64,000 nucleotides of DNA from an uncultured Actinomycetes bacterium. GTDB taxonomy: Bacteria; Actinomycetota; Coriobacteriia; Coriobacteriales; Atopobiaceae. The notes beneath the pieces were generated by a model. The model was given only the letters and a program-made list of their open reading frames with translations, ran no database searches and had not been told where the DNA came from. The DNA lies in assembly GCA_900315165.1 (NCBI GenBank), contig OMXZ01000007.1, positions 1-64,000 of the forward strand. The letters are read 5' to 3'. Made by a program: the position numbers and the translations under genes. This document shows positions 7,336 through 63,042 of the stretch, piece after piece; position 1 is the first letter of the stretch, and each line of letters begins with the position of its first letter.

Positions 7336-7530
7336 CACCACCGCATGGTTGGTGGGTCGCTACCAACCATGTTGGGGTGCGAGTGACAAATGCCCAGATA
7401 AATCACACGGCACCACCGCATTGTTGGTAAACGCGGAACCAATGATGCGGGGGTGCGGACCAAGAATCCCCAGATAAATCGATCGACAACCCCATATCGT
7501 TGGTAGCGCCTTACCAGCAATGCGGGGGTG
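7336..7530. repeat. Palindromic repeat cluster A (three units)
   Basis: Three imperfect inverted repeats: 7336-7353/7362-7379, 7411-7428/7438-7455 and about 7490-7504/7513-7530. Each has arms of the type CACCNCCGCATNGTTGGT and ACCAANNATGCGGGGGTG around a 7-9 base loop. Units are separated by spacers that both contain CCCAGATAAATC. The same family occurs at 58.7-59.0 and 62.8-63.0 kb. The cluster fills the gap between two convergent genes and has no coding signal. Confidence 0.85.
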
Positions 7531-18848: not shown

Positions 18849-18904
18849 CTTGCTAGAGAGGGGCGATGCCGAGGAAAGAGGGGCGGCGAGGACAAAGGAG
18901 AGAC

Positions 18905-18920
18905 GTCCCCTATTGACCCA
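18905..18920. repeat. Half copy of the GACGTCCCC-ATTG repeat
   Basis: GACGTCCCCTATTGAC matches one arm of the inverted repeat found complete at 33489-33535. It lies in the 294-base gap between aguA and aguR, which otherwise holds a terminator and a promoter. Confidence 0.5.
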
Positions 18921-29529: not shown

Positions 29530-29736
29530 TCTTTGCGTCATACAGCCACATCGTGCCCCATTTGTTGTTAAACTGCACATAAGGCGCGTGCCGTGACTGA
29601 CGGAGATTCGTGGGACACCACGGGGGAGCGGCGCGCAAGACAACGTGCCGTCCGTCTGGGCAAGCCTCACAACCGAAGGGCTTGCTATGCGTCAGGCCCC
29701 GAGGATGCGAGGACCGCGAGCATCCGAGGAGCGCTC

Positions 29737-33488: not shown

Positions 33489-33535
33489 ATGTGTCAATAG
33501 GGGACGTTTCCCTATTGTCAGGGAACGTCCCCCAT
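33489..33535. repeat. GGGGACGTT inverted repeat
   Basis: CAATAGGGGACGTT and GAACGTCCCCCATTG form a long imperfect hairpin; the loop repeats CCCTATTG. Half of the element recurs at 18905-18920. It lies immediately after the arcC stop codon. Confidence 0.6.
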
Positions 33536-33552
33536 TGCTATAACTGCACGCT

Positions 33553-41945: not shown

Positions 41946-41996
41946 TGGTGCCATGGCACAAAAAGAAGTTCGGGCGCTGCAGGAAGCAACAACGGT

Positions 41997-42029
41997 AAAA
42001 AAGGCAGGTAGAATGTATTTCTACCTGCC
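41997..42029 (-). terminator. Terminator of tRNA-Ser (TGA)
   Basis: On the minus strand GGCAGGTAGAA/TTCTACCTGCC forms a perfect 11-bp stem with a 5-base loop, followed by TTTTTT. Confidence 0.93.
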
Positions 42030-42040
42030 GAAACGTCGGG

Positions 42041-52993: not shown

Positions 52994-53197
52994 CACAGAC
53001 GGAAGCCGCGTGATGTCGAATCCACAGACGGAAAGCGCCTGTTTTCCCAATACCACTCGTGCGACTCACAGACGGAGAGCGTGCGATTTGGAAAACCCGC
53101 AGGTCGCGAAAAATCGGAGGCCCTCCGTCTGTGGGCGCGCTCGGGTGAGGCGAGGATTCAAGACCTTCCGTCTGTGAATGGCCGCTTTCCGTCTGTG
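52994..53197. repeat. Six copies of CACAGACGGA, three forward and three inverted
   Basis: Forward copies of CACAGACGGA start at 52994, 53023 and 53067; reverse complements TCCGTCTGTG start at 53124, 53167 and 53188. The arrangement is head-to-head around position 53100. It occupies most of the 389-base gap before metA and overlaps no supportable gene. Confidence 0.8.
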
Positions 53198-53290
53198 TAT
53201 GGCTCGAGCCGGCCCACGGGGCGCGAAGGCCCCGCGGGCGGGCAAAGTGCGCTACAGTTGATGGGCAAAAACGCACCGATAGGAGCTGCA

Positions 53291-58402: not shown

Positions 58403-58715
58403 CGTGTAGAACGTGGCTCGCGCCTCGCACGCGTGCCGCTGCGCCGCCCACCAGTGCGCCATCGCATCGCCGTCCTCCACGACCATGCGTTGGCCCGCAC
58501 TTGTGCACCTTCTCGTCATCGCCTCTGCACGCGCCTCACAGAGCAGAGGAGCATCGAGAAGGAAAAGCCCAGGTCGCACACTCTCGACCCTCGTCTGCTC
58601 CGTATGGATCGAAGCGGCTCCGAGAGGGTCGTCGCGGAAGCGCATCGATTTCTGGGTATTCCCGACAAATGGGGCCCGAATGTACGAAGCGGGGCAGGGG
58701 GAAGGGCTCTGGCTT
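58403..58715. other. Gap after iorB without a supportable gene
   Basis: About 310 bases. Frames exist on both strands but none has a start signal or a recognisable product. CCTCTGC (58522-58528) and GCAGAGG (58543-58549) can pair but are not followed by T. No convincing terminator of the ior operon is seen. Confidence 0.4.
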
Positions 58716-58980
58716 ACCAACGATGTGAGGGTGCGAGTTACAAACGCGCAGGTCAGTACTTTCGCACCCCCATATCGTTGGTCATGCTGTTACCAACGAT
58801 ATGGGGGTGTGGACGAAGAAATCCCAGATAAATCGGTCGATACCCCCGCATCGTTGGTGGCAGATACCAACGATGCGGGGGTGCGGGGCAGCGGTTCACC
58901 AACGATGCGGGGGTGCGGGGCAGCGGTTCACCAACGATGCGGGGGTGCGGGAAGGCCAGCGACCAACGACACGCGGGCGC
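58716..58980. repeat. Palindromic repeat cluster B
   Basis: It contains a half unit (58716-58733), a perfect 18-bp palindrome pair CACCCCCATATCGTTGGT/ACCAACGATATGGGGGTG (58765-58808), and a second full unit (about 58842-58884). Two tandem right-arm copies follow, each preceded by GGGGCAGCGGTTC (about 58898-58947), then a degenerate arm (58962-58980). The spacer at 58822-58835 again contains CCCAGATAAATC, as in cluster A. It lies upstream of nifJ. Confidence 0.85.
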
Positions 58981-62716: not shown

Positions 62717-62746
62717 AGCCCTGGGATTTCGGTCCCGGGGCTTTTT
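62717..62746 (+). terminator. Terminator after nifJ
   Basis: AGCCCTGGGA pairs with TCCCGGGGCT (one G-U pair) around TTTCGG, followed by TTTTT. Confidence 0.9.
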
Positions 62747-62814: not shown

Positions 62815-63042
62815 CGCACCCCCGCATGCTTGGTAATGTCATCCCCGCACCCCCGTATCGCTGGTAGGCGGTTACCAGCGATGCGGGGGTGCGGGGATTG
62901 TGACCTGCGCATTTGTCGCTCACACCCACGCATCGTTGGTAATCCGGATACCAACGATGCGTGGGTGCTGAGACTCTGAGCTGCACTTTTATAGTTCACA
63001 CCCCCATATCGTTGGTAAAGGCTCACCAACGATATGGGGGTG
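62815..63042. repeat. Palindromic repeat cluster C
   Basis: It contains a half unit (62815-62833) and three full units at about 62848-62892, 62921-62967 and 62997-63042. Arms vary between units in step: CCCCGTATCGCTGGT with ACCAGCGATGCGGGG, CCCACGCATCG with CGATGCGTGGG, and CCCCATATCG with CGATATGGGG. The rest of the 523-base gap between nifJ and the MATE gene holds the terminator and no gene. Confidence 0.87.

Follow-up and report, generated by a model that had tools for sequence, protein, structure and literature searches.

REP-type repeats are normally ascribed to one dedicated enzyme, RAYT, and the repeats described here show the same habits in a genus whose five searched genomes yielded no RAYT. 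BOX elements are built from modules (boxA-B-C), and rolling-circle and CRESS origins carry a short conserved sequence, with conserved nick sites, in the loop of a variable stem. In a survey of REP and BIME sequences, Actinobacteria are not among the phyla given for the GTAG and CGTC repeats (PMC3733652). REPINs, which consist of inverted arms around a spacer, have been described as extragenic, with compensatory changes reported and with one group having 71 bp between its end motifs (PMC3116915).

The stretch of DNA which has been analyzed, hereafter the window, comprises 64,000 nucleotides (contig C45, positions 1-64000) of genome G000, a 2.3-Mb draft in 80 contigs that is ~89% complete. Palindromic units had been reported in three clusters by a first-pass annotation, and they were confirmed in each of the three. 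These units (family A) are listed below with two further arm families of the window.

7336-7379: hairpin, loop of 8 nt (cluster 7336-7530)
7380-7410, plus strand: 31-nt linker with core, CCCAGATAAAT variant
7411-7455: central hairpin, loop of 9 nt
7456-7486, plus strand: 31-nt linker with core, CCCAGATAAAT variant
7487-7530: hairpin, loop of 8 nt
52994-53198, plus strand: third arm family (B), CACAGACGGAAAGC, with three left arms, core GGAAAACCCGCAGGTCGCGA at ~53091 and three right arms
58541-58600, plus strand: second arm family (D-like), GAGCAGAGGAGCATCGAG / CTCGACCCTCGTCTGCTC, with core GGAAAAGCCCAGGTCGCAC between the arms at 58561-58579
58716-58733, minus strand: half arm (cluster 58716-58979)
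58734-58764, plus strand: 31-nt linker with core GCGCAGGTCA
58765-58809: central hairpin, loop of 9 nt
58810-58840, plus strand: 31-nt linker with core, CCCAGATAAAT variant
58841-58883: hairpin, loop of 7 nt
58898-58979, minus strand: three tandem half arms with a 32-bp period, at 58898-58915, 58930-58947 and (degenerate) 58962-58979
62817-62834, plus strand: unpaired half arm CACCCCCGCATGCTTGGT
62848-62891: hairpin of 44 nt, 18-bp arms, loop of 8 nt
62892-62922, minus strand: linker of 31 nt, with core ACAAATGCGCAGGTCACAA on the minus strand at 62898-62916
62923-62967: central hairpin of 45 nt, loop of 9 nt
62968-62998, minus strand: 31-nt linker, core at 62974-62992 (minus strand)
62999-63042: hairpin of 44 nt, loop of 8 nt

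The three pairs of matching arm changes quoted in the first-pass annotation are all present: CCCAC/GTGGG in hairpin 62923-62967, CATATCG/CGATATG in hairpin 62999-63042 and TCGCTGGT/ACCAGCGA in hairpin 62848-62891, where arm positions 8-9 are mismatched (GT opposite GC). Family-A loops measure 6-9 nt as a rule, a few being longer (17 and 27 nt), and the palindrome has CG/CA/GG-CACCCCC...GGGGGTG-CG/TG at its outer ends. Other features were observed elsewhere in the window: a ZMP/ZTP riboswitch (RF01750) at 29583-29668, a different inverted repeat, TGTGTCAATAGGGGACGTTTCCCTATTGTC...GGGAACGTCCCCCATTG, intact and partial at 33490-33540 and 18891-18920, which is probably another interspersed repeat family, and at 41990-42035 a hairpin of two opposed core-like sequences, GGCAGGTAGAATGTATTTCTACCTGCC, adjoining a tRNA-Ser gene.

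The palindromic units greatly exceed chance expectation: their strict core pattern gave 18 sites per strand genome-wide and the reversed pattern none. Searches with a covariance model identified further copies across the genome and in one sister species. Genome-wide, ~36 short-loop hairpins and 111 arms were found in 15 intergenic clusters, and most of the hairpins, being palindromic, were called on each of the two strands; the dispersed, intergenic and REP/BIME-like character proposed at first is supported. The figures for the whole genome are based on searches plus a sample of ~449 kb out of 2.3 Mb, in which all 10 clusters with at least two strong palindromes belonged to family A. The 15 clusters follow a common plan which, when oriented by the linker, reads [>8< or <15<] 31 > 9 < 31 > 8 <, beginning either with an outer hairpin (8-nt loop) or with several half arms in a row, continuing with a 31-nt linker, a hairpin whose loop has 9 nt and a second 31-nt linker, and closing with an outer hairpin, again with 8 nt in its loop. 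Optional half arms, ~14 nt apart, follow the final outer hairpin, and a few clusters depart from the plan by truncation or by gaps of other lengths. Hairpin centers are mostly 75.5 nt apart. The linkers, which had been missed and which hold the more widely shared sequence, carry a directional core, ACAAAAGCGCAGGTCA or its variant CCCAGATAAAT, whose distance from either arm is constant. Each cluster has two core copies 75-76 bp apart. Twenty flanking proteins were searched and proved ordinary or unmatched, with no transposase among them; SRAP peptidase, class-II aminoacyl-tRNA synthetase, TilS, POR and MatE are examples of these ordinary housekeeping genes.

Among 140 genomes of the family, the only matches to the linker-hairpin-linker model were in G000 and in a single congeneric species, G002, which is ~91-95% identical to the window around the genes at 59-64 kb. 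This species has the same plan and the same linker core, with arms reading CGGCGGT in place of CGTTGGT (T-A,T-A to G-C,C-G), and possesses a further arm family, GGATCCCCCGTTGCGTCTGTA, around an unchanged linker core. The counterpart of the 7.3-kb cluster (G002 C31:29504-29698) lies at the orthologous position, next to the same gene and with unchanged orientation, but has different arms. Similarly, G002 has a hairpin of the ATCCCCCGTTG... family at the position of G000 cluster C49c, a ACGCCGCCGGAAGG... family sharing the core beside the 58.7-kb locus, and an inverted-repeat element with two cores at the 53-kb cluster locus. At the position of G000 cluster C63 no such element was seen in G002, and the G002 cluster at ~C26:57820-58340 has no G000 counterpart, ~10 bp standing in place of 684 bp. 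Orthologous intergenic regions are occupied differently in the two species. No precise empty site with a junction was found between them and, the flanks being too diverged for a precise junction, these differences demonstrate turnover but not transposition. The intergenic site of the window's 62.8-kb cluster holds another repeat array in G002 (CGTTCTTCGGGAGCCAATCTGCAGCGAATCGCGTAGA... with CCAAAGCGCGAT; C29:80900-83300, L139, minus strand) and CAAACGCCACATCNTNTTTCA-like repeats in G001 (C25:1-347, L142).

A matrix built from the linkers was used to find the core in other inverted repeats. Under stricter settings, the core was contained in 22 of 61 inverted repeats of the G000 sample, family A included, against 5.5 expected, and in 10 of 45 in G002, against 3.6 expected; a looser inverted-repeat threshold gave a smaller excess (25 of 114 against 13.4). 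Arms of the GAGCAGAGG.../CTCGTCTGCTC type enclose a core at window positions 58541-58600 and on C49, ATGGTTCATCTTTCG arms have a core inside in G001 and G004, and three other genera of the family likewise have the core inside inverted repeats. Elements of type C, which number 12 or more in G000 and G002 combined, are 213-241 bp long, with terminal inverted repeats of 27-40 bp and two cores ~70-73 bp apart. Most of the G000 copies have in common a terminal-repeat variant that is absent from those of G002, the pattern expected of lineage-specific spread. A further type-C element (G000:C45:74511-74738) lies just outside the window on the same contig. Judged on these comparisons, the family-A hairpin sequence is one among many arm families around a conserved core.

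Once the examples from the genus and family had been seen, a sharpened 15-nt core, AWAACCGCAGGTMRA, was fixed and used to search 60 genomes of the order. In these, ~67 exact sites were found against 0 for the reversed pattern. Near-identical flanks were removed, but sites at orthologous places are still non-independent, and the reversed pattern does not allow for single-copy sites passed on by descent, of which the rplI-dnaB site is an example. Outside the order the core is nearly absent, 56 genomes sampled across the phylum giving 4 core sites and 1 reversed control match. The identity of the genus linkers with this 15-mer rests on the position-weight-matrix match, since GCGCAGGTCA and CCCAGATAAAT match it only loosely. 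No open frame exists on either strand at 43 of the 60 core sites fetched. Fifteen of the 60 lie inside inverted repeats scoring at least 14, compared with 2 of 120 control positions at the same loci (Fisher 1.4e-6), several of the strong cases deriving from one genus; the other 45 exact core sites have no strong inverted repeat. The order-level palindromes which bear the core have loops of 54-162 nt and, when 20 such elements were aligned, only 15 nt were shared, the arms differing between genera. In G014 (L339) the arm forms a hairpin of its own, which is also the case in the window. The conserved part is a short core in palindromes which have unrelated stems across the order.

Several individual sites were also noted. 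In G038, G042 and G122 (L248, L249 and L255), which represent two genera, the core lies in the intergenic region that follows rplI and precedes dnaB. It is accompanied in G038 and G042 by a second core-like copy at a distance of ~41 nt, and in G122 by an opposed copy, and looks like a conserved site by the replicative helicase gene. Exact core copies adjoin tRNA-like sequences at L266, L270 and L277. None of the viral matches to TATAACCGCAGGTAGA was taken as related, the two with a tandem near-copy beside TTGACA looking like phage operators, and an Atopobiaceae match to the linker pattern (L102) was judged on inspection to be due to chance, as were other distant matches.

On the parsimonious reading, the window repeats are a new form of extragenic palindromic repeat and represent one of many arm families on a single core. 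It is proposed, with even weight for and against, that the clusters are a non-autonomous, REP/BIME-like extragenic hairpin element whose core would be read by a candidate order-specific protein. Arrays of perfect or near-perfect hairpins are separated by linkers with one core copy each, and this core would serve, by analogy, as the site read sequence-specifically by a putative protein conserved in the order. The putative protein would most plausibly be a nuclease or a transposase, acting on the core once the flanking palindrome extrudes or turns single-stranded; the model for such reading is provided by the conserved nick sites in the variable-stem loops of rolling-circle origins, and from this analogy we infer a candidate nuclease or transposase on the hairpin core. 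The arms would need only self-complementarity and could thus drift fast while the palindrome is kept, with help from template-switch correction. In the genomes compared, no autonomous partner, transposition intermediate, clean empty site with a junction or target duplication was found. A more far-reaching version, which is put forward tentatively, would define an undescribed order-wide class of palindromes by its 15-nt loop or linker core, AWAACCGCAGGTMRA, with stems turning over freely yet staying self-complementary; the core would be the site of a putative nuclease or transposase other than Y1/RAYT, an enzyme which would read hairpin and core together and spread or rewrite the arms. A 15-nt core in a hairpin offers a definite bait for finding such a protein.

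Since 45 of the 60 core sites have no strong inverted repeat and some occupy conserved positions (rplI-dnaB), the core may also serve as an ordinary site of regulation or of protein binding. The corresponding explanation, which appears rather doubtful, is that of a BIME-like element bound by a nucleoid protein, gyrase or a regulator on the core, the arms or both, which would organize DNA or regulate neighboring genes and be immobile now. It would suit the two cores set 75-76 bp apart in each cluster, the intergenic location, with divergent genes flanking 0 of the 14 clusters that could be classified (P ~0.03), the prevalence of one orientation of solo order-level cores relative to flanking genes (13 vs 3) and the rplI-dnaB position conserved in two genera. 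It accords poorly with arms that are wholly different between families around a constant core, and the family-A core shows no orientation bias relative to flanking tandem genes (4 to 4).

Regarding the arms, the first-pass annotation had claimed that their differences covary and that the hairpin is therefore kept. The first part stands. Among 36 unselected pairs of adjacent arms, the variable dinucleotide (arm positions 8-9) was matched by the opposite arm in 19, where shuffles gave 7.3 (p<0.0005), and mismatched cells numbered 70, compared with 90.5 after shuffling; compensation was similar in the 24-hairpin set used for the model, and G002 contributes two more compensated pairs (T-A,T-A to G-C,C-G). 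Compensation is real but incomplete. The dinucleotide matched across the 31-nt linker in 3 of 28 cases (4.2 expected), on which ground a stem across the linker ('< L >') was rejected as the covarying unit, and between tandem neighbors in 10 of 31 (8.1 expected). Compensation being confined to short-loop arm pairs, the short-loop hairpin is the part kept paired. Selection on RNA only was rejected as well, wobble-type mismatches being about equal on the two strands (31 vs 22). The second part, that the hairpin is kept by selection, was overstated: template switching during replication has been described as generating and fixing compensations of this kind (PMC8794818, PMC7202029) and, as a documented source of them between close arms (PMC8794818), it means that compensation alone does not prove selection; with compensation restricted to the short-loop hairpin and no strand preference, template-switch repair could yield it as well as selection. 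Taken to its end, this leads to the explanation that the hairpins are inert and that their arms, mostly 6-9 nt apart, are simply re-matched at replication by this mechanism, no selection being needed. As an account of the whole element it seems unlikely, since it leaves unexplained the invariant positions of family-A arms (10-11, 15-18 and others), the 75.5-nt spacing, the shared linker core and the occurrence of that core across the order inside palindromes with loops of 54-162 nt. The repeats nevertheless offer a natural series of stem variants in which one may ask whether compensatory changes are selected or made by template switching.

The possibility that these are RNA elements, 3′ untranslated hairpins which would block 3′ exonucleases or end transcription, is suggested by the very stable fold of the 261-nt cluster, 14 SD better than shuffles (z -14.1), and by the location of the clusters 3′ of at least one gene. 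It is nonetheless judged improbable. No T-run was found 3′ of the family-A hairpins in the three window clusters, for which reason intrinsic terminators were rejected, and the terminator near the 62.8-kb cluster is a separate stem (62717-62742). G-U mismatches are not clearly favored over A-C ones on either strand, and no Rfam family reached the gathering threshold at the clusters, the matches below threshold being generic hairpins (miRNA models; F6 at 35.8 of 46 bits). Similarly, no Rfam match was obtained at the order-level core loci up to E=1.

The reading of the repeats as a classical MITE belonging to an ordinary DDE transposon, with the autonomous copy missing from the ~89% complete G000 assembly, is highly improbable even though the type-C relatives have a fitting size (~213-241 bp), terminal inverted repeats (27-40 bp) and copy number (at least 12 in G000 and G002), since no obvious target duplication appears in the 12-nt type-C flanks printed, family A has no definable termini, and a core with unrelated arms in other genera is not expected from one transposase that reads terminal repeats. 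The type-C copies resolved in the genus search all measured 213-241 bp, with no longer one among them, at the ~89% completeness of G000.

Two other ideas were rejected. Nothing similar to the cluster was found in PLSDB or INPHARED, whereby a plasmid or phage origin was rejected, and IMG/VR gave no match to the linker-with-flanks pattern. The RAYT link raised by the first-pass annotation was likewise dropped: a search for the Y1 transposase (PF01797) gave 0 matches in five genomes of the genus, including G001 (99% complete), G004 (98%) and the element-bearing G002 (91%), a search which was positive in 6 of the 21 genomes searched and in 5 of 14 controls. Gene loss, or an assembly gap in G000, may still account for the absence there. 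At the palindrome foot, neither the GTAG nor the CGTC tetranucleotide is present.

Compared with known systems, the preferred reading of a hairpin element with a protein-read core borrows from rolling-circle and CRESS origins by analogy only, as the present repeats are chromosomal, dispersed and multi-copy, with no Rep protein identified. Type C recalls MITEs and the terminal inverted repeats of tyrosine transposases ('TIRtrons', PMC3733652) by its long terminal inverted repeats, its length of ~213-241 bp and its lineage-specific variants; it differs in that no obvious target duplication or autonomous partner was found and that its internal core spans families with unrelated terminal repeats. 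The pneumococcal BOX and RUP elements (PMC3049150) are likewise small, interspersed, modular and intergenic, a likeness of description. Closer are REP and BIME sequences (PMC3733652), which share short, clustered, intergenic palindromes, complementary stem variation, linker motifs and species-specific sequence. The window repeats are REP/BIME-like, yet neither of two defining features of RAYT-linked REPs, a resident Y1 gene and a GTAG/CGTC foot, was found for them; they are further distinguished by 18-bp stems, a 75.5-nt periodic array, a directional linker core and the sharing of that core by unrelated arm families of one order. REPINs (PMC3116915) resemble them in inverted arms, spacer, compensation and extragenic location and differ, besides the missing RAYT, in an inverse pattern of conservation: REPINs keep their ends while the spacer varies, whereas the families described here, taken together, keep the core of the spacer and differ in their ends.
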